Positions 2,075 to 45,609 of a DNA stretch of 64,000 nucleotides are shown piece after piece. Source of the stretch: Lepisosteus oculatus (taxonomy: Eukaryota > Chordata > Actinopteri > Semionotiformes > Lepisosteidae). The position numbers and the translations under genes were made by a program. The stretch lies in contig NC_090706.1 of assembly GCF_040954835.1 (NCBI RefSeq), positions 26,545,148 to 26,609,147 on the forward strand, written 5' to 3'. The notes under the pieces are model-generated. The model made no database searches. It was given only the letters and a program-made list of their open reading frames with translations, and was not told where the DNA came from. Within the stretch, counting starts at the first letter, position 1. Each line of letters starts with the position of its first letter.

Positions 2075-3290
2075 TTAGATAGATAGATACTTTATTGATC
2101 CCGTGAGGGAAATTGCAGTGCAACAGCATCTTAACACAGACAACACAGCCACAGTGTAACGAGTTATATAATAATAGTACAATACGTACAATACAATCAG
2201 TACAGTGAGGGTGCACTAAAAGAGTTACTCACAGTCCGGACACACAAAGAACAAACTAGAACAGAACAGTACACAGAAAAATCGTATCACACATATGAAT
2301 AAAAATATAGATGTAAATATAGATATAGATATAAATATAGATGTAAATGTATTGCACAGGTCCCTGGTATATATTGCACAAAAAACGGTTGTAAACGGGA
2401 AAAGAAAAGAAAGAGAACAGATGTAGCAGTAGATGTGTAGATGCGTTCAGTCCAGAAACAGGTCACTGTCAATGTTTCCTCTGCCCAGACGCAAGGTGGA
2501 TGCATTGTACAGTCTTATGGCAGAAGGCAAGAATGGCCTCCTGTAGCGCTCCCTGTCGCACCGTGGATGAATCAGTCTATTGCTGAACGTGCTCTTCATT
2601 TCTGCAAGCCTGTCATAGAGGGGATGGGAGATGTTGTCCATGACGGCCTCTAGTTTGGACACCATTCTCCTCTCAGCCACTACCTCCAAGGGGTCCAGGT
2701 CAGACCCAATGACAGAGCTTGCTCTCCTGATGAGCTTGTTCAGCCTTTTAGAATCCACTGCTCTAATCCCAGGGCCCCAGCATACCACTGCATAGAAAAT
2801 GGCACTCGCTACCACCGACTGATAGAACATATGAAGTATCTTACTACATACATTGAAGGACCTGAGCCTCCTCAAGAAGTAAAGTCGGCTCTGTCCCTTC
2901 TTATAGATGGCCTCGATGTTCTTAGACCATTCCAGTCTATCGTCGATGTGCACTCCCAAGTACTTGTACGAGTCCACCATCTCCACGCCACTCTCATGGA
3001 TTGATAGACAGGAGTAGGTTTGACCTTTTTCCTCCTGAAATCTACCACCAGTTCCTTTGTCTTTGTTACATTCAGTTCCAAGTGGTTCACCCCACACCAC
3101 TCCACAAAGCTGCTGACCAGTCCTCTGTACTCCTCCTCCTGCTCACCCTTGATACATCCCACAATTGCAGAGTCATCTGAGAACTTCTGCAGGTGGCATG
3201 ACTTTGAGTTGTACTTAAAGTCCGAAGTATAGACGGTGAAGAGGAATGGAGAAAGAACTGTCCCTTGAGGTGCCCCTGTGTTACTCATTC
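2075..3290 (-). mobile_element. 5'-truncated non-LTR retrotransposon (L2/Rex/jockey-type) with broken reverse transcriptase
   Basis: The minus strand encodes the C-terminal half of a LINE reverse transcriptase in two overlapping frames. The first frame has the palm motif around GAPQGTVLSPFLFTVYTSDF and the catalytic box as FSDD (in KFSDDSAIVG), followed by WCGVNHLELNVTKTKELVVD. The second frame carries YKYLGVHIDDRLEW and the C-terminal RT tail down to about 2450. The change of frame lies near 3000, so the protein is broken. On the minus strand the element ends in a tail with an AATAAAG-like run and a short GATA tandem repeat, typical of fish LINE 3' ends. Nothing upstream of GAPQG is LINE-like, so the copy is 5'-truncated. 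It is inactive. Confidence 0.8.
2300..2350. repeat. ATAGAT/ATGTAA-type microsatellite in the LINE 3' region
   Basis: A run of degenerate ATAGAT and AAATAT units lies in the 3' untranslated part of the neighbouring LINE fragment and is most simply part of it. Confidence 0.6.
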
Positions 3291-19086: not shown

Positions 19087-19129
19087 ATGTCAGTAAAGAC
19101 ACCTTTTATCTCAGTGGTTCTTGCATGTT
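19087..19129 (+). CDS. lect2: LECT2 exon 1 (signal peptide start)
   Basis: Encodes 14 residues (MSVKTPFISVVLAC) and ends in phase 1 at the perfect donor T|GTAAGT. Joined to the next exon, the split codon becomes Trp and the hydrophobic core continues as WLLF, giving one continuous signal peptide. The exon was found by its fit to the downstream phase, not by similarity, so it is a little less certain than the others. Confidence 0.75.
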
Positions 19130-22100
19130 GTAAGTAAAGTTTCAAAGTATGTAAAAAAAAAACACTATATGAACTGTTACTTAACTTTATTTTTATGCAC
19201 ACCGATAATTTCAGGGGTCTGGGATAATAAAACAACAAAAAACATATTACCAAAGAAACAACTCTGATAAACCATGTATTTACATCACAGTTAATCATTA
19301 CAATATTAAAGCAAATGTGTAAATTATGTGCTTAACATGATTCACAGGTGGCGAAGACTATTTATTATTTTTGTTTCGGCATAGACCACTTGCATATCGC
19401 TAAACTTTGTCACCATTTCACAAGGTTCAGAAAATAATATTGCTGAGTTCCAGAGAGAATGCTGTACCACCATATAGACCTCACTGTCATTATTGAAGTC
19501 CATCTTTGAGCTGAACAGATAAAAATCGACTGGTACAGGATCTGAACTGTAATATCAAGGTCCTCAATGTTCTAAACTCTAGATCTTACTTTGTGTACAG
19601 CAGGTCCATGTTGCCGTGTTGCTTTTGTCTTTTGTCTCTAAGAGTTGCCTTGCTTTTTAGGGCAGCAGCCATATGGGTGATAGAAGTTTGCTATGGTCAT
19701 GGCTTCAGTGATGACATGACTTCAGAACTAACCAGCATCATGTTGTTATGAGTGCATAAATAACCTTGTGAAGTTGTGGCATAAGAGAGGAGGTGGGCAA
19801 AGGGACTGTGCTGAAATGTTTTACCCAGCAGTTAAACATATTTGATTAATAATTTACAAATTCACTAAACAAACTCTTCTGTGTGTGTATATACTGTACA
19901 ATGAGACAAACAGAAGATGTGGACTGAATCGTTGAGCTCTGAGAGAGAGATCACTGTGATACAGTATGTGAAACATTTGAGGCTTAATTAAATTTTGCCA
20001 GGAACATTCAAATGAATTGTCACTGGCCCAGAAAACATACACTTGTATATTCTTTATTTCAAACATTTGTTTTGCATTGTCATAATAATGCAACTGTAAA
20101 GTATGTGTTTACATATGGTAACAGCCTATCCCAGGCTGGTACAGGAAAACAGCAGTTTTTCTCAATTTTCTTTAACTTTTATAACTGCAATAAGAAGCTT
20201 CTGGAGCAATATTTGCCTAAATAAAACCTCTGACTCTGCCATAACAGAAGAATATTCCTATATTATATCTGTCAGGAGGGAGACAGAAGATCAGGATGCT
20301 TACTCCATTTTATTTCACTTATATTTCCTGATAAGCAGAGTGAGGTCACCTGCTGACATCAATTGGTTAGAATGTTTTTCTTTGCTAAAAGCTGCCACAA
20401 AAGTGTGCTTGGCATCCAGGGATACTGTCATTACAATTGTCCTCTAGTGAGAACTAACTCATTTCAATTAAGGTTACAGGCATTAATTTACAGGGGCTGC
20501 TAAGTGCAATGGCAATTAATTACCTGCCAGTGAAGGTGACTATAACTGTAACCACCACTCTGGCTGCTGTTGCAAAATATAATTACCCATAGAGAGGGAA
20601 ATGGACCACAAAACTGGTATTCAATGTCATGATTTTGATTTTGAACTCCATTAATATTTTGAAATCCAAACCATGCATAGTTACAGATATTATTATTACT
20701 AGTAGTATAATTGATATCCAGATGCATTTACTGTATAAGTATTAATACTACTGTACAGTACATTTGCCCTTACTCATTATTCTTCTTTGTTATAGGGCTC
20801 TTGTTTTGTCATGGTCTTGCCACTCCAAAGAGAGAGGCGAAGAAAGTGAAAAGCGATGTTGCCTGTAGCAGAATTGGAGGCATTTGTCAACGTTCCTCAT
20901 ACGTCTGCGCAGGGAGATACCTGAAGAGCAAGTGTGCAGGCCCTGCAACCCGTCAGTGCTGTCTGGAAGGTACAGTACCAGGCAATCTGACCCACCGGGA
21001 GCACTGTCACTGGAAATCGATAGAGCAGCTACACAGCAGCCAAAGAGACAGAAAGCAGTGTGGATGTTAGTAACCTGCCAAGAGCATCTCTTTTTAGCAG
21101 TTACAACATTCTAAGTCAATTATACAGAGCTATGCACACAACATATTATTCAAGCTTAGATCCCTATAATACCTGTCAATAAGAATCTGTTTGTGTGTTA
21201 TTGATGATGCTATAACGGGTTAAAAAAAGGACTACATCCCCATGACCCTTTGGGTTGGTTTAGGCTTTGATCAGGATTATGTTTTTGTTATCAACATCCA
21301 CTTGGACAACATTTGTTTTAAAGAATCTTCACCTCATATAATGTGGTGAGTCACAGTCTTATAAACCCGCTGGAGAGGAAAGAGGGATTAAAATAGCTTT
21401 AGATCTTTTTTTCTTTATAGTTATTAATAATTTCTACAGCACTTACTATACCTCTGCCATTGTTGAAAACATTGCTCTCTATTGCTTTCTGAGTCAATAC
21501 AGCTGTGGCTTTCTTTGTTTTTACATTTCACTCTTCCTTCTCCATCCCCTCTTCCAGATTCTGGGGCATGGGATGTTCTATGTTCTGGTCACCATTCGAA
21601 CAGAGTAAGGGGCTGTGACAAATTTGGCTGTGGACATTTCAATTCTAAAAGGTATCCTACTGGCAGTTATTTATTTCTACTGTGTGTTTCTCTAGAACCA
21701 AATCCAGTAGACACAACCTTAAACAGATTTTATACAGAAGGTATTTATGAGTAAAACCATTCTGAGAGGAAAAACAGCAAAGCCACAAGTGCAAGGATAT
21801 TATTTAACAAGTGCTATTTTTAGAATCCTCTGTCACCTCAGGCTTTCTCTAAATAGGTTACTGAAACCTGTTTTTACAGCAAAACCTACGCTCATTTAAA
21901 ACAAGACAGGATATCAATCGGCAAAAATATACCACCCTTTCAAATGTTCTTGTTTTAAAATGGAGAAGGAAATGCTATCTTTGTTATACACATCCTGGCC
22001 TAAAAAAAGTCCATGAGCCCCCAGTCAAGTGAATCATCTCTCAGTGGCAAGCAATATGTGGTTGACTTTATAAGCATGAAGCACACTTCCATCACCTTCC

Positions 22101-24875
22101 CTGGCCAGAACAATCCCTACTGTACATCTCAATCCTATTTTAATCAGCCGGAACCAGTGGAACACGCCATTCAATCCCACACCCCATTTACTTCATCACA
22201 GCCCCAAATGAGACGCGGCTCAATATATTTCAAAACCTATACAATGACATCCTGTCCAAGGCATTCCTGCTGCTTACGGAGGCCCAGCACAATGGGAGCT
22301 AATGTATTGACCAGTGATCAAATATTGTTCCTAATTGTATTTTAATTGTTATAGATCGTTAAAAACAACATAAAATAAGAGGCTTTCATAGGAGAATATA
22401 CAGTACTGTCACATTGTGCTCATTTAGTTGCTACTGCTGTAGCTTATTGATCCAGAGTTAACAAAAGGTTAACAGTTCCCTAACTTCAGAACTATGAGAT
22501 GCATGTAAATTTAAATGAATACATTCATTTGTTACTGTACTTCAGAATAAATATACTTAAATCTCCATCTATGTAATGGCACTGTTATGCAAAAAAGAAA
22601 AAAACTACAAGGCTTTGTCAATTGCATCCTTTGCTGTTTGATATAACTGCTGAAATGTTTCCTTCTAAGATTTCACACTAATTTAGCTACTCTAAGAGTT
22701 TAATGTTTAGCTGGACAAGTTACAAAAGGCCTTTTCCAAACTGATAATTTGTAGTTTTTCCAGGTCTGATAAAAGGTTTCTGAGACAATGACAAAAAAAT
22801 CAACTAAATCTGAAATATTTTATCAGAAATGTCAGAAATGAAATTCCCTCATTAATCTATAAGATGAGAGAGATATAAATATCACTTTATTGGCCATACA
22901 CATTTTCTTATATTAGGAATTTGTCTTTTTTCACATATCTCAACTTGCTCTCCATGAGATACACAGACAAGGCAAAAAGCTTGGGGTCAGATCACAGGTC
23001 AGCCATTTATACAGCACCCCTGGAGCAGTTGGAGTTAAGCGTCTTGCTCAGGGCCCCAACAGATTAGGATTCCTCTGCCAGCTGCAGGATATGAACCAGC
23101 AACCTTCCAGCCACAGGCACAGATCCTTAGCCACATAGCCACTGCACCACCCCAGCTCTGTTCCAATCAATCCTTTGGGCTAATTCACAGAGATACAAAA
23201 CGTTTTTTTTCCTAAAGAAATGAAATGGGTACTAAATCCATAAAATGCCAAATTGTAAACTTTTGTGAGTGTTTTCTTCTTTTGCCTTTGTTGAATTCAA
23301 TTCTATATCATTGTACCCTAGGGGCAGTCACGTCCACAAGGCTGTGGACATAGTGTGTGATGATTACACAGTTGTCCACGCTCCCTTCACAGGCATGTTG
23401 AGGGGTCGAGTTCAGCCACATGGGGATTCCAGCACTAATGATGATGGTGTTGAACTCTCAAACTCAGGTGAGATATGATGCCTCAATGTCTGCTTTCATA
23501 AGCACCTTATTCCCAAAGGCAAAACTAACCCATCTCAGTCCTGAGGTGTCTGCCCACCTTTCTGCAAATATAATGACGGTGGAAAATATAATGACTAAAT
23601 GGAACTAATTTAATCTCACAGCATATTCAATTTAAACAAAGTAACAAGACATCAAATTATTTTTTTCTACATCTTCAGCAGCTAAAAAAATCTTACTGTG
23701 CTTGAAACAAATGATGAGCTACATATCTGCAATAATATTACCATTGTCTGATTATGCCAAGCAAACATTAGTGTAATGTAAACTAGCCAATGTGCAAGAA
23801 GATGTTTTGATGAACTCCACATTCTCTGTAAAACTTGACCCAGGAAGCTTGAGAAATGTTAATAATCTCACAAAAGGCTAGGAGTGCACAAACATCTGAC
23901 AGCAACGATGGTAATTAAGATTACATCTGCAATCTCTCATTAGCTTCCATTTCACATATACACACAAACTGGCTGGTTTGCTTTGAAAAACAACCATGCT
24001 GCCATTAGCCGTAATTAAGTGAGGAGAGAAAACAGTTCATTAAAGGAAAGATACACTTTAGGTCACACAGCAGCTTATGCTGTTTTTGTAAAGCAAGCGA
24101 TTTGGAAAGAAAACAAAGAGTGAAGTTCATATCAGAGAAGACTATTAATAAATGTTTATTAAAATCACAGTAAAATATGGCTTTTGTGGCTTTGGCTAGG
24201 ACAAGCTATTAATTAGTAAAGCCTTTTTAGTGATACTGAGAAATAAACTGAGATGGATTCCAATGTCAGATTCCAGATACTGATGATTGTAGGTAAGTCT
24301 ATCCAGAAGGTTGCTTAATAAGATTTCCTTATAACACATATAAAGTCAAGAGTTGGCCTGCTCTACAGCAAGCTTTTGGGTTTCTTTTGCTCAGACTTGA
24401 ACAGATTCTTCATAACAAAACAGGTATAATTTCTTACACAGATTTTCAGATATATTGGCTTTCAACTGTCTCAAAACAATAGTTTTGTGTCAAACGTGTT
24501 TGTAGGCAAGTCACATAATTTAGCTAAAAGGCAGTATTCTTACAGACATTTTTTCTTTTAATTGTAAAAGAAAGCAGGCGTATGTAGTAGTATATACTAT
24601 TATATATACTATTATATAATAATATTATAACTAAAAAGGACTGCTTAGAAAATATCTACATATCCATTGATCAATCCATCTGCCTATTCACCTTTTTATC
24701 TTTTAAAGTGCACTGCGTGAAGATTTTCAATATCCGTCCCAGCCGATACAAAGGATTCGTCTCCAAAGGCGAGAGCCTGGGCTACGTGCTCCCTATGCAG
24801 GAAAAGTATTCCGGGATCACCTCTCACCTTCATCTCCAGATGTGTGACAAATCTGATCCTACACCCTACATTTAA
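19087..24875 (+). CDS. lect2: LECT2 with an extra N-terminal six-cysteine module; join of five coding exons
   Basis: Coding exons are 19087-19129, 20796-20969, 21558-21651, 23322-23467 and 24709-24875. All introns are GT-AG and the join gives 207 residues plus TAA. Residues 1-23 form a signal peptide ending in GLA. Residues 24-37 are a basic linker. Residues 38-70 are a six-cysteine module. Residues 74-207 are the LECT2 chain. The zinc ligands of the M23-type fold are present (H109 and D113 in HKAVD, H194 in the HLH motif), as are the six usual LECT2 cysteines (81, 92, 97, 115, 155, 198). The family is a secreted hepatokine and leukocyte chemotactic factor, known to keep the zinc site of lysostaphin-like peptidases while being regarded as non-proteolytic. 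The usual length is about 150 residues, and the surplus is the extra module. The ATG was chosen because it opens a hydrophobic leader, has A at -3, and ends at a GTAAGT donor in the phase needed downstream. Confidence 0.9.
20796..20969 (+). CDS. lect2: LECT2 extra exon: end of signal peptide, basic linker and six-cysteine module
   Basis: Preceded by a pyrimidine-rich TTATAG acceptor and followed by G|GTACAG. It starts and ends in phase 1, so it can be included or skipped without a frame change. It encodes residues 15-72. Cysteines 38, 45, 52, 61, 69 and 70 are spaced C-x6-C-x6-C-x8-C-x7-CC, with GGIC in the first half and CAGPATRQCC at the end. The mature part is cationic (about eleven Lys/Arg against three Asp/Glu). 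Standard vertebrate LECT2 lacks this exon. The cysteine spacing resembles beta-defensins (C, GG/GxC, C, C, CC). The CxGPxxxQCC ending recalls small modules found beside peptidoglycan-active domains in microbes and invertebrates. Which relation is real cannot be settled from the sequence alone. Confidence 0.85.
21558..21651 (+). CDS. lect2: LECT2 exon opening the canonical LECT2 chain
   Basis: Encodes DSGAWDVLCSGHHSNRVRGC and the following FGCGHFNSK segment, with LECT2 cysteines 81, 92 and 97. It enters in phase 1 after CTTCCAG and leaves in phase 2 at AG|GTATCC. These phases are the expected ones for the second exon of ordinary LECT2 genes. Confidence 0.9.
22862..23162 (-). mobile_element. 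tRNA-derived SINE, full-length copy
   Basis: On the minus strand it starts with a GGGGTGGTGCAGTGG head, an A-box-like TGGCTAAGG and a B-box-like GGTTCATATCC, so it carries a Pol III promoter of tRNA type. Its 3' end reads GGCCAATAAAGTGATATTTA, a LINE-like tail. It lies antisense in LECT2 intron 3. The same family occurs in the opposite orientation at 35889-36148. Confidence 0.75.
23322..23467 (+). CDS. lect2: LECT2 exon with the HxxxD zinc-ligand pair
   Basis: Begins after CCCTAG and ends at G|GTGAGA, so it is phase 2 in and phase 1 out. It encodes GSHVHKAVDIVCDD, then VVHAPFTGML and DDGVELSNS. H109 and D113 are the first two zinc ligands, and C115 is a conserved LECT2 cysteine. Confidence 0.92.
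24709..24875 (+). CDS. lect2: LECT2 last coding exon with the HxH zinc-ligand motif
   Basis: Begins after TTTTAAAG in phase 1 and ends at TAA 24873-24875. It encodes CVKIFNIRPSRYKG, LGYVLPMQEKYSGITSHLHL and MCDKSDPTPYI. The C-terminal pattern is nearly invariant in LECT2. H194 is the third zinc ligand, and C155 and C198 are conserved cysteines. Confidence 0.95.
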
Positions 24876-27740: not shown

Positions 27741-27893
27741 AACAAGTAAAAGGTTTATTCCATGCTGAAAAGAGAAAAAAAAGAAACAACATTTCAGCCG
27801 AAATGTTGCGTTTCCTTTCTTTTCTTTTCAGCATGGAATAAACCTTTTACTTGTTGCTTTGCAGACTACCTATGCTGACGCAGCTACCTCCTT
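27741..27893. repeat. Head-to-head inverted copies of a dispersed repeat forming a 55-bp-arm hairpin
   Basis: The arm 27741-27795 pairs with 27800-27855 around an AGCC loop with few mismatches. Each arm contains CATGCTGAAAAG/CTTTTCAGCATG and GGTTTATTCC/GGAATAAACC. The right copy continues to 27893 with the family 3' end, ending in TGACGCAGCTACC. Two copies joined head-to-head, the left one truncated, explain the structure. Confidence 0.8.
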
Positions 27894-30751: not shown

Positions 30752-31395
30752 TTACCAAGTTGGCATCATGTCTGGAAACCACATCCGCCCGAGATGTTTA
30801 GACACCTCAAAGTGAATTTGCTCCACATTATAGCTGTTGTCTGGGATCAGGACCTCCTCCATTATGGAAAGCTGGGTCAGCCGCCCGCCGCACATCTTCA
30901 CGAACTCGATGAAGCCGCTACAGGTGACCTCACACTCCCCCAGCCCAATGGCCGTCAGGTTCTTGCAGCGGTCTGCAATCCGGATCAGCTCATCGTCCAG
31001 GGGCTCGAAGCCATTCGCACACACCACGAGCTCCACCAGCCTGGGGCAGTTCAGCCCGATGCGCCCCAGCATCTCCTTGCTGACGGCCCGGCCAAAATAC
31101 AGGTGCGTGACAGGGGTCTCCTCGCGAAAGAAGGGGTCAAACTCCTCCTCGTAGAGGAAGAAGTACATGACGATGTTGACCTTGGGGGAGTGCTTCACCA
31201 AGGCATCCCAGCTCCTCTTCTTGATGGTATGGAACTGAGTCTGCCCAGGGTTCTCACTGACCACATCGATGCGAAGATGCTCCAGGTGCACGTGCTTCTC
31301 ACTCGACAGAGCCAAGAGCAGTTCGTCACTCAGGAGGTGATAATTCAGCGCCAGCTCCCGTAGGCCGTGGCACTGGTCTGCCACACAAAGAATAC
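30752..31395 (-). CDS. fbxl21: FBXL21 last coding exon (C-terminal LRRs and CRY-contacting tail)
   Basis: Enters in phase 1 after a TATAG acceptor and runs 214 codons to TAA. It starts [19 protein letters not shown] and contains [31 protein letters not shown] and the end FPDMMPTW. It is clearly GC-richer than the surrounding DNA. It has a long antisense open frame that is only a shadow. Confidence 0.95.
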
Positions 31396-34300
31396 CTATA
31401 CGAGAAAGGACCATGAAAAATTGAAATCTGTTTGAATACATGGCATTCGAATCACAATATGCCATTCAGGCATACAGAACATTTTTTGCAGTGCACTGTT
31501 CTAAGAAGTATGTACTTAAGCTGCCCCCTGTTTTCGTAGACTATTCTGATCATTTTAAAACAGCAAATTTCTCAATAGCTTGATTTGACATTCAGCACAC
31601 ATTTAATAAAGTCTAAAACCCGGCATCACTCAACCAGTAACAGCTTTAGTGGTGGTAAGTATCATTACAGCTTCTAGCCTGTTCTTTAACAAGCAAGACT
31701 TGTTGAGTGTCCCTTAAATACATGTAGTAACAGATAAAAACCAAATATTTTGTCATCTGACAAACATTCAAAAAGATAAAGGTTGACAAATACAAATTAA
31801 GAGCTTTAAACAACATGGAAACTGTTTTCAAAGATACTGTACATGGGTGAGGATTTATTAAACCGTCTGTTGACATATTGCAGAAGAATGGCATAATGTT
31901 AGGCATTAACTTCATGTTGTACAGAAACATGTTTTTTTGCCAAACAAAGGGGAATTAATTACAGCTCATTAGGCTTCAGTTTTTATATGCAATGTTCTTT
32001 ATAAGACTTAAGAAGTCTGAGGGCAGTAACCACAGAGCCCTATGTACCAAGTACATTTATAACCAAGTGATTTAAGCAACCATGAATTAAAAAATAGTTA
32101 ATTCCACTCAACAGTTAATTAAGCATCTGCGCAAGTGGTGCATATACAACTCATGGCATATACAATTTTCAGTAATCACTGACATTTACAAACTAAACAC
32201 CGCGTGCAGTATTACGCAGATAAATGGATTTCTGAAAGCAGTGTTGGACAAAATGTAATTTTTTCCTTTAATGAACAGAAAATAGTGCCGGGCCCAGAAT
32301 CAATTTTCATGTACTTGAATAATTCACTTCTTTCAAAGTCTCTGGCAACATACAGTATAGACAACCAGAAAATCAGGTCAACCTAGAGTGCAGTGAATGA
32401 GCTACATCTCTTAGCAACTCTTACTATAGAAGGGCACAAACGGATGTGCTGTACGCACATAGTGCTGTACGCACATAGTGCTGTACGCACATAGTGCTGT
32501 ACGCACATAGTGCTGTACGCACATAGTGCTGTACGCACATAGTGATTGTTCTCCTTACAGTCATTAAAACCATGAGCTCCATCCACCTTAGACAATTATT
32601 TTCTACCCTATAAAGACATAATGCTTGAATCTGCAATCATTCTTTTTCAACTGTTCTTCTCCAACTATTTTATTATATTTTATTATATTGACATCCAAAG
32701 AAGGCTCCACAGCTGAAACGTTGTGTTTCTTTTCTTCTCTTTTCACCATGGAATAAACCATTATTTTGCAGCCTACGCATGCTGATGCAGCTACCTACTT
32801 AACTATTTTATTATATTTCCACCTAACCTGCAATGTTCTTCTGTTTAGTTCTAAGAATAAACAGATGTCCAAAGAGAACTGCAGAAGACCTTGCTACATA
32901 TTTCTAACAAAAAATAAATGTAATAAACAATAACTTTTATATTGCTGTTTTAAATCAGACTGGATTTACTGAATATGTGCATAACACCTAGAACACTGCT
33001 TCAATTTAAAATCACCTAAGTCTACATATGATAAATGTTTTTTTTTTAATATCATGCTAAATAAAATGTACTATGAATGCTACAAATCAACTCAAAAGAC
33101 AAGGTTCAACAGTGTGGCCAGCAGTACAGAAATCATTGCCTTAGCTCACCAGCAGGGGAGACATGGGGACAACTACTCATCTTCAGCAGTTTCAGCGTGT
33201 CGCTGTTATTCGCCACCAACACCTTCAAAGAAGGGTCATCCACAGGTGTGTCGTCAATTTTTATCGAAGACAGGGACTTTGAGTTCACAAACACCACCGT
33301 GAGGGCAGACACAAAGTGAGACTGTAGGGACACAAGAGATTAACAAATTTGCTTCTAATCATGGTTAACATTTAAAAAAATCAATTATTTTTTAACTTAC
33401 ATATGTGTTCCATGATTCTATAACCACTCAAACTGTCTAAAATTTCTCTTTGTATTCATTCTGTACTTAATCTATTACTTTGTAAAGAAATAAAACATCA
33501 TATTTAAACTGCACAATACAAAAGTATATGCATGAGAGGTCAAAGGTGTATTTTCATGTTAGTGCTTAATGTTATAGAAATTAGGGAGTCTGTGCATTAA
33601 ATGACAAGATAACAGCCATTCGAAATGCTGACAACATGCTTCATACAGAGTACTGACAAAAACAGTTAGCTTATTAATGCATTTTTGAGTATAGCTGTGC
33701 AATACTGGTAACAGCCAACGCATACCTGTGATACGTTCATGAAGCTCGGCCTTGCTGTAGAGATGAGCCCCAGAGTCTTGATAGTGCAGTTCACCAGTTG
33801 TGAGAGAATGTCACAGGCTGCCTCTGCAGACTCAGTACAGCTGTCAACCTTAAGCAAAATAAGTAAGTGGATTGTGGTACTGCAACGCTAACTTTAAAAG
33901 CAGCTTCACTTCACACAAATCACCAGTATTTTCAGTTTTACATCCACCCAGTTTAGAATCACCAGTGTTGAATAAGCACAGCATTACAGTGAAACCCTGA
34001 ACCACATTGGAAAAGACAGACATGACCTTCAGATTTCCCTTTGTTTGGACACTTTCTCACTCACTGTGCCCATTCTCACATACCCTTTTTTTGTTCTCCC
34101 CTGTTTCATATCCCAGCATCCTGTATCTCTCTCCCTCATACCTAAATGAAGGCTCAACAGCCAAAAAGTTGTTTTCCTTCCTACTTTGCAGCATGTTTTA
34201 ATGATGTCACTGCCAATTCACAGGCACCCATGAATCCCAGTTGCTGTTGTATCAAAAACTGAACAGCCAAGTCGAATCATACTCGTCCAGTTCTGTACTG

Positions 34301-35215
34301 TCACTTGGGAAATCCCAGTCACAATCAGTTTGAAACAATCTAGGCTCAAATCTGCAATGCTGGCAACACATGACCCACGACCAATATTCTACATCAATGC
34401 ATTTATGGGATGAACCGATGAGCAGCCCCTTGATTTTTAAAGATATATTATTTTTTATTAAAGTTAACATATAACATTCAGATACTACACTATTCATTCA
34501 CATATCAATTGCCTGTCTTTCTAAAAACAAAACACACCAATAAGTCAATGATTTGCACTGATGAGCATCTTAGTTTAGAAAAGAAAGATGGCGCAGTTTT
34601 GAAAAAGAAGGCCTAATTGTGAAACAAGAAAAAAACAGATGTTGCGAGTTAAAATATTTCAAACACATGTTCCCAAAATAAAGCCTCCAATTCAAATCCC
34701 ATGCTGTGCTTGGGGATGATGAGTCATTGCAACCTCCTCTACAGATTAGCCGGTTAGGTTGTCAGACGGATTAGAAAGTGCTGGGAGTAACGATGTGCAA
34801 AGCTGGATGAGGGGGTGGGGGTCAGGAGATCCTTTACCTTGAAGCTAACGTACTGCAGATGTTGAGCATGCTTCTTTATAATCTGCTGGATGAGGTCAGG
34901 GTGAGTAGATTTCAGATATGACGTGGCAGGCTGGTTGAGCTCGAACTCAAACCTCCTCCACAGGTCGGGGATGTGAAAGACTTCGTTCCACCTCCTGCAG
35001 ACGGAGGAGGCCCGCGCCCGGTCCACAAGGGACAAGTGCTGGAAGACTTGTAGCACCACATGGTGAGGCAGGTTCCCCCAGTCCTGCACGGTGTCCTGTC
35101 TCCAGGACGCCCCGAGACGGAAGCCTGATGATCTGCCCTTGTGCTTTTTGCTTCCTTCTTCGGCAGATGAAGGGGCTTGACTCTCCGGGTTGATATTTAT
35201 TCTTCCTCGTTTCAT
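30752..35215 (-). CDS. fbxl21: FBXL21, F-box/LRR circadian ubiquitin-ligase subunit; join of four coding exons
   Basis: Exons in transcript order are 35215-34838, 33848-33726, 33321-33150 and 31395-30752, all GT-AG, giving 438 residues and TAA. The F-box is at residues 45-92 ([20 protein letters not shown] and on through [14 protein letters not shown]), followed by leucine-rich repeats. FBXL21 is the substrate receptor of an SCF ligase. In mammals it ubiquitinates cryptochromes and opposes its paralogue FBXL3. C368 and I374 correspond to FBXL3 C358 and I364, the residues hit in the mouse Afterhours and Overtime mutants. The C-terminal Trp that FBXL3 inserts into the CRY flavin pocket is kept (ends MMPTW). 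The N-terminal half reads like FBXL21, while much of the C-terminal half is equally close to FBXL3. The LECT2 neighbour supports FBXL21. No frameshift or stop interrupts it, unlike the human FBXL21P locus. Confidence 0.93.
32447..32542. repeat. 16-bp minisatellite, six perfect units
   Basis: The unit TGCTGTACGCACATAG is repeated six times without change in FBXL21 intron 3. Each unit contains a short inverted repeat (GTGC with GCAC around TGTAC). Perfect identity of all units indicates recent expansion. Confidence 0.95.
32695..32801 (+). repeat. Dispersed AATAAACC/GCATGCTGACGCAG repeat, near full copy
   Basis: Runs from AAAGAAGGCTCCACAGCTGA through CATGGAATAAACC to GCATGCTGATGCAGCTACC. It aligns along its length with 46795-46907. 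The start (GGCT, CCAC, AGCT, GAAACG) has the form of a short stem-loop followed by GAAA. It lies antisense in FBXL21 intron 3. Confidence 0.75.
33150..33321 (-). CDS. fbxl21: FBXL21 third coding exon
   Basis: 57 codons plus one base, from CCCTACAG to G|GTGAGC. It encodes [40 protein letters not shown] and [11 protein letters not shown], which are nearly invariant in the FBXL3/FBXL21 family. Confidence 0.94.
33537..33549 (+). promoter_or_regulatory. DR1-type nuclear-receptor motif
   Basis: AGGTCA-A-AGGTGT is a direct repeat with one-base spacing, the HNF4/PPAR-RXR form, lying in FBXL21 intron 2. Such motifs are common and nothing else supports function. Confidence 0.2.
33726..33848 (-). CDS. 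fbxl21: FBXL21 second coding exon
   Basis: 41 codons, phase 0 on both sides, from the CTTAAG acceptor to the CACAG|GTATG donor. It encodes [15 protein letters not shown] and [17 protein letters not shown], the first leucine-rich repeats. Confidence 0.93.
34146..34200 (+). repeat. Diverged partial copy of the same dispersed repeat
   Basis: AAATGAAGGCTCAACAGCC followed by a pyrimidine run and GCAGCATG aligns with the first 50-60 bases of the 32.7 and 46.8 kb copies. It retains ATGA directly before the stem, unlike the other copies. Confidence 0.5.
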
Positions 35216-35216
35216 T
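34838..35216 (-). CDS. fbxl21: FBXL21 first coding exon (F-box)
   Basis: The start codon at 35215-35213 lies one base inside the exon, after a TTTGTGTGCAG acceptor, so at least one untranslated 5' exon must exist upstream. The exon encodes residues 1-126, including a basic N-terminus ([10 protein letters not shown]) and the whole F-box, and ends in phase 0 at AAG|GTAAAG. Confidence 0.92.
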
Positions 35217-35651
35217 CTGCACACAAACAGAAAGGAAGGGAAACAGAACCAGACTGCATCAAAACAAGCATTTCCACAAACATCCTCATACACTTCTAAA
35301 TAAGTCTGTTTCTAAACACGATCAACTGTTGCAGAATTCTTATTACTCCCCCATCCCCACCAACCTGCTTCGTCTTAGATGTAAAAAAGACCTCTTTCAT
35401 TGTAGGCTCAAGTGAAACATAGTACGAAATTTCAGGCTGTGGTAAAACACATATCCAAAGGTTGCGCAAGAATTTTTTTTTACAAAATTAAAGAAACCCT
35501 ACACATGAATAGCCTCTTTGCTTCAAGGGCAGTTTTTTTAAACAGCTTGTGGAGAAGTTAAGCCACAATCACCAGTTGTTAATTATCCTGAGCACAAGGA
35601 TCAGACCAGTGATGACCTCAATGGAGTCCAATGTGCTAAGACTCCATAAGA

Positions 35652-45099: not shown

Positions 45100-45609
45100 T
45101 TACATCCAATTAAAATGTCTTTGCATAGCAATGTAGGTGGCCCTCCCATCTTCGTGGAACAGGCTGAAGAGTGACTCGACCATGAAGAGGACCTGATGCT
45201 GCTGCTGACAAGTCCATCGCAGCCTCTGTCTGGCCCGAGAGTCGGGTGTGATGTCTAGGAGGTGTGAGCAGAGGGCCTCTGACAGGTCGCCCTGCTCTAA
45301 GGCCAGCAGCATGGAGTCTCACTGTCCTGTCACTGATGCAGGCATTGTGTCTGGCTGCAGTTTCAGCAGCAGTACAGGTGGCAGATCTGAAACGATCTCT
45401 CAGATCAGTCTGATGTGTCGGTCCTGCTCTGGTGTGGTCACTTGAGGGCAACCAGGTCTTGGAAGGTCATCTGTCCTGCTGGTCTGCTGAAACCTTCTCT
45501 GCACTAAGGAGCAGCTTACTCCATAGTGTCTGGCATCGCTGGCACATGACGTGACGTTTCTTTTTTTCATCAGTATATAATATTGTGGTACTTGATAAAA
45601 ATGAATCAT
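45100..45609 (-). pseudogene. Degraded Tc1-like transposase
   Basis: Three frames together cover a Tc1 transposase. 45609-45400 has QRRFQQTSRTDDLPRPGCPQ and VTTPEQDRHIRLI. 45431-45268 has LRDRFRSATCTAAETAARHN and ACISDRTVR. 45250-45100 has RQRLRWTCQQQHQVLFMVES followed by LFSLFHEDGRA. At least two frameshifts separate them. The first catalytic Asp of the DDE triad, normally in FTDES, is Val here (FMVES), and the part with the second and third acidic residues is missing. It is a dead transposon of a different subfamily from those at 56 and 61 kb. Confidence 0.85.

Follow-up and report, generated by a model that had tools for sequence, protein, structure and literature searches.

A predicted cysteine-rich repeat-type module joined to the M23-fold protein LECT2 in a gar

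The stretch of DNA analyzed here (the window) spans 64,000 nucleotides of the 1.2 Gb genome of the gar Lepisosteus oculatus (C11:26545148-26609147) and contains a five-exon LECT2 gene (Table 1). The joined frame of the five exons is open over 207 amino acids, beginning with a signal peptide that was assigned by eye; exon 1, which has an open frame, ends at the donor GTT/GTAAGT. Residues 75-207, the last 133 of the 207, align over the full length with residues 3-135 of human LECT2 (5b0h, E 1.7e-40). Six cysteines are present in the body (residues 73-207) together with both zinc motifs, HKAVD (H-x3-D) and HLH (H-x-H), the residues of which we take to serve as ligands. The Pfam model Peptidase_M23 was recovered with the five-exon protein at E 0.0056 (17.3 bits, under the cut-off of 28.7 bits), and an NCBIfam search with the same protein gave no match. 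Human and tilapia LECT2 share the full-length M23-fold body, the six body cysteines and both motifs, but are described as proteins of 151 amino acids encoded by four exons (PMC8174566); at five exons and 207 amino acids including an additional module, the gar gene departs from this usual form.

Table 1. Features of the LECT2 locus and of the second LECT2 copy (positions in the window, unless C11 coordinates are given)
Feature	Position	Strand	Description
LECT2 exon 1	19087..19129, 43 nt	+	initiation codon plus beginning of the signal peptide (MSVKTPFISVVLAC); phase 1 at its 3' end
LECT2 exon 2	20796..20969, 174 nt, phase 1-1	+	remainder of the signal peptide, then the Lys/Arg-rich linker TPKREAKKVKS and the module with six cysteines
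CRR-type module (probable), C-x6-C-x6-C-x8-C-x7-CC	20864..20962, residues 38-70	+	pattern match at 20864
LECT2 exon 3	21558..21651	+	canonical exon that opens the M23-fold body; matches human LECT2 structure 5b0h
LECT2 exon 4	23322..23467	+	carries the H-x3-D motif
LECT2 exon 5	24709..24875	+	H-x-H motif; stop codon
FBXL3/FBXL21-type F-box gene	30752..35311	-	adjoins LECT2; matches to human FBXL3 and F-box-like
Second LECT2 copy	C11:34116429-34121810		on the chromosome of the first copy, at a distance of 7.5 Mb; its body, joined from pieces, matches human LECT2 (E 1.9e-44)
Candidate mini-exon, second LECT2 copy	C11:34116911-34116940, 30 nt, phase 1-1		predicted; good-looking splice signals

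The gene adjoining LECT2 was assigned from two of its open frames, one matching human FBXL3 (4i6j, E 7.9e-130; no Pfam match at E ≤ 0.01) and another carrying an F-box-like domain (E 9.2e-15). An FBXL3/FBXL21-type gene beside LECT2 is presumably the usual neighborhood of LECT2 in vertebrates. By eye, several tandem copies of the short unit gctgtacgcacatagt lie within the F-box gene region at about 32448-32545, and two similar stretches at about 27777-27850 and 32714-32760 both end in atggaataaacc, probably marking a dispersed repeat. Elsewhere in the window, a minus-strand open frame at 2447-3142 resembles the 3' portion of a reverse transcriptase protein of the LINE type and matches Pfam ALKBH8_N (E 1.4e-12), a common label on such elements. 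A weak helix-turn-helix match of the Tc transposase type (PF01498, E 1.4e-5, under the curated cut-off) on the minus strand at 45110-45466 is probably a transposon remnant.

Between the signal-peptide exon and the canonical LECT2 exons lies the additional exon 2 that the first-pass annotation had proposed. It is present in the DNA in frame, with phase 1-1, AG before it and GT after it, so that the proposed coordinates and phases hold, and a spacing test found the claimed C-x6-C-x6-C-x8-C-x7-CC spacing to be exact. The description of its splice sites as good applies to the acceptor, which is ordinary, but not to the donor AAG/GTACAG, which is weak at a score of 4.8, a value reached by 248 of the 3,600 GT sites in the window when scored with textbook donor frequencies. 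A weak donor does not disprove the exon, however, because the donor of exon 3, an exon supported by homology, scores no better (4.6, reached by 276 of 3,600). The GC content of exon 2 (0.52) is close to that of exons 4 and 5 (0.51 and 0.49), compared to 0.35 and 0.38 in its flanking introns. A relaxed form of the cysteine spacing (loops of 6, 5-7, 8-9 and 7-8) occurred once in the six-frame translation of the window and once in total across 200 dinucleotide-Markov random windows, and the motif is therefore unlikely to be a chance occurrence at this scale. Since exon 2 both starts and ends in phase 1, its inclusion and its skipping would each preserve the frame; placement as a phase 1-1 exon, after the signal and before the body, is the usual geometry for the shuffling of extracellular modules. 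From these properties of the DNA, we consider it very likely that exon 2 is a real LECT2 exon and predict its use in the LECT2 product.

It is improbable, in our estimate, that exon 2 has decayed or is a cassette spliced in only rarely, the main product being an ordinary four-exon LECT2. The frame-keeping skip, the weak donor and the four-exon genes of human and tilapia would all suit such a cassette, yet the exon runs through 58 codons free of stops or frame damage, retains all six cysteines and has the GC content of exons 4 and 5, and its skipping would cut the signal peptide down to a very short one (MSVKTPFISVVLAC-YSGAWD, judged by eye). A separate small secreted-peptide gene made of exons 1 and 2 is disfavored and barely credible: the exon 2 frame does continue through the donor to a stop at 21070, but no AATAAA occurs from 20970 to 21558 (a single ATTAAA lies at 21387), and LECT2 would probably be left without a signal exon.

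The six-cysteine unit had been called defensin-like or wall-binding-like, and the wall-associated half of that description is the one upheld. The cysteine-rich repeat (CRR), first described in rusticalin, is reported to follow the motif Cx6Cx6-7Cx8Cx7CC (PMC6339383), and the gar loops of 6, 6, 8 and 7 residues fall within it; the module ends in CxGPxxxQCC. The published CRR logo has Gly at positions 10, 21, 26 and 30 and Pro at 29 and 31 (PMC7379824). With the PGP set at 29-31, an offset placed by us, the gar module keeps four of these six residues (G10, G21, G30 and P31, with G26 and P29 absent), a count reached by 0.04% of the shuffled versions when the loop residues of the module were permuted 100,000 times (p 0.0004). 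On the same scale, the two repeats of PLys, a goose-type lysozyme of the placozoan Trichoplax sp. H2, keep three of six (CRR1) and six of six (CRR2). Loop similarity, evaluated against shuffles for these two family members, gave p 0.011 with PLys CRR2 and p 0.13 with PLys CRR1, and p 5e-5 between the two PLys repeats themselves. The module is 26% and 23% identical to the two PLys repeats, as aligned with some of the cysteines out of register. Pfam showed no CRR family for the module.

In its placement the module resembles known CRRs, which are reported to stand ahead of wall-active domains in proteins of tunicates, placozoans and fungi (PMC6339383, PMC7379824): it follows the signal peptide (by eye) and precedes the M23-fold LECT2 body, a domain of wall-active type. 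It occurs in single copy, in contrast to the multiple copies per protein that are usual, though not defining, for CRRs (PMC7379824). Structure prediction from the single sequence gave two low-confidence models of the module (mean pLDDT 70.4 and 72.5) that contain three or four short strands, the other models in each prediction run having pLDDT of 48-61; Foldseek searches with the module models found no relative. The tick carboxypeptidase inhibitor (PDB 1ZLH), reported as a remote relative of CRR pairs with a beta-defensin-like fold (PMC6339383), was not recovered by phmmer or by a three-sequence profile.

Judged by its residues, the module is probably of CRR type, with homology that is thin outside the cysteines and the Gly/Pro positions, and we infer that it would fold as a CRR-like beta-sheet unit. 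That it is a true CRR, homologous to those of rusticalin and PLys, seems likely to us. The six-cysteine spacing could instead have arisen independently and merely resemble that of CRRs, as the weak similarity beyond the cysteines and Gly/Pro positions might suggest. The exact spacing, the four of six logo positions and the shared placement (N-terminal in a secreted protein) next to the same kind of partner domain all argue against such convergence, and we hold it to be unlikely.

Membership in the beta-defensins, the other half of the earlier description, was rejected on spacing and on Pfam. Fish beta-defensins resemble the gar module in their six cysteines ending in CC, their cationic character and the three strands expected of them, but are encoded by stand-alone genes of three exons, and the loops of the one fish example compared, sea bass beta-defensin 2, are 5-3-11-5 as computed from its cysteine numbers (PMC8231796), as opposed to 6-6-8-7 in gar. 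At E ≤ 10, Pfam listed PulS_OutS (E 0.11 and 0.086) and Peptidase_M23 (E 0.0056) and no defensin model, with the proviso that HMMER filters drop most matches above about 0.1. A captured beta-defensin exon acting on bacterial membranes is thus a very improbable source of the module: the cysteines, charge and predicted beta strands would be compatible with one, and HHpred reportedly relates CRRs themselves to the beta-defensin fold (PMC6339383), but loop lengths and Pfam speak against it and the CxGP and Gly positions suit CRRs instead.

Relatives of the module were searched for in the gar genome and in phage, plasmid and viral collections. Among the best candidates scored, the module itself was the only genomic match at E ≤ 10, and a PLys repeat as query gave one match (E 4.9); the module therefore looks to be single in the genome, as far as these sequence searches can indicate. 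The second LECT2 copy lacks any such six-cysteine motif in 18 kb around it on both strands. Between its 40-nt signal exon and its first body exon, at the place of the module exon in the first copy, a mini-exon is predicted, the skipping of which would also preserve the frame. If this mini-exon is real, both copies have a phase 1-1 exon at the same place, and loss of the module from the second copy would then suit better than gain in the first. This second copy may itself be decaying, because joining its exons 3 and 4 at the evident acceptor disrupts the frame.

With the two PLys repeats as tblastn queries, phages gave no match and plasmids none at E ≤ 1. In viral contigs, a search for related loci gave 12 pattern matches, none of them confirmed, and scans for the spacing pattern gave 4, 4 and 6 stretches, none of which looked like a CRR protein by eye. 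The motif lies in a stop-free frame in 10 of these 14 stretches and only with internal stops in one (L064), and there is no stop-free motif in three (L057, L059 and L060). At the viral stretch L056 the complete spacing is present within a frame of 263 codons that is littered with cysteines and was taken as a chance frame. That no CRR was recognized in the phage, plasmid and viral collections is in line with a survey that describes CRRs as almost exclusively eukaryotic, with 374 of its 382 proteins from eukaryotes (301 fungal and 69 metazoan) (PMC7379824). Exon gain or ancestral retention is the best reading of how the module was acquired. A more far-reaching scenario, which we regard as unlikely, is that LECT2 descended from an animal antibacterial protein of the rusticalin/PLys class that combined CRRs with a wall peptidase; gar would then keep the ancestral two-module form and its second copy a 30-nt stub of the exon, while in teleosts and mammals LECT2, with its four exons, would be a stripped remnant turned cytokine.

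The 33 residues of the module include six Lys/Arg and no Asp/Glu, and the calculated pI falls from 10.5 for residues 23-34 to 9.4 for the module and 7.8 for the LECT2 body. As a cationic, disulfide-tied beta-sheet unit inserted, with the frame kept, after the signal peptide and ahead of the M23-fold body, the CRR-type module could work as an N-terminal accessory domain once LECT2 is secreted. There it might stabilize LECT2 and, with the Lys/Arg-rich linker, tighten its hold on anionic bacterial surfaces (peptidoglycan and teichoic acids), and cleavage may subsequently remove it, as happens in PLys. For that lysozyme, melting is reported at 50-60 °C with its two CRRs and at 25-35 °C without, at specific activities of 9 U/pmol for the full protein and 11 U/pmol without CRRs; the CRRs are removed in maturation, and the most abundant native form lacks them (PMC12855814). 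LECT2 of fish, for its part, is already able to bind bacterial walls: a review describes grass carp LECT2-b as binding peptidoglycan and lipoteichoic acid and killing bacteria, and as the only directly antibacterial one of two teleost LECT2 copies (PMC10034042). Taken with the stabilization of PLys by its CRRs and the cationic character of the module, this makes an accessory domain the most economical mechanism.

Overall, we give even chances to a CRR-type accessory module that stabilizes LECT2 and adds cationic surface binding; the functional part of this proposal is tentative and stands somewhat below that. A LECT2 bearing the module may act against bacteria, but a direct antibacterial role need not stem from the module, to judge by the killing of bacteria by grass carp LECT2-b, which would lack one because LECT2 is described as well conserved and about 151 amino acids long. 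The module and its basic linker could alternatively anchor LECT2 to glycosaminoglycans or matrix near the secreting tissue, with no antibacterial part. The gradient in pI from linker to body would fit an anchor of this kind, but in the CRR survey 63 of the 124 proteins with known domains carry bacterial wall-hydrolyzing ones (PMC7379824; the other 258 of 382 have no recognized domain nearby), and we consider the anchor unlikely.

If our assignment is true, a wall-hydrolase-type accessory module ties LECT2, which a review calls the sole M23 wall-peptidase family member in vertebrates (PMC10034042), to the CRR-hydrolase proteins of invertebrates, and hints that it once was, or still is, armed like the enzymes with which placozoans, sea squirts and fungi degrade walls. 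Should the module be recent, a vertebrate cytokine gained a domain through phase 1-1 exon shuffling. As far as checked, a rusticalin-type CRR joined to LECT2 is a new combination of known parts: no module-bearing LECT2 was described among the literature matches listed, annotated database entries may already hold one, and a term search of the main text of the CRR survey found no mention of LECT2, M23 or fish (PMC7379824).

PLys and the rusticalin-like proteins are among the known systems closest to the predicted gar protein. PLys is likewise a secreted wall-active protein with N-terminal CRRs, and its CRR2 shares the CxGP and Gly positions of the gar module; it differs in having two repeats, with loops of 6-5-9-8 (CRR1) and 6-5-8-7 (CRR2), and in its GH23 partner, being an active lysozyme (PMC12855814). 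The rusticalin-like proteins reported from tunicates, amphioxus, coral and a placozoan are, like gar LECT2, secreted, with an N-terminal Cx6Cx6-7Cx8Cx7CC repeat and, behind it, a zinc-peptidase fold of wall-hydrolase origin, the active-site residues of which are reported as conserved except in rusticalin itself (PMC6339383). Rusticalin differs in carrying two repeats and in its partner, which is L-Ala-D-Glu peptidase-like (MD clan) and not M23, and its authors' guesses for the role of the CRRs were perforation or regulation (PMC6339383).
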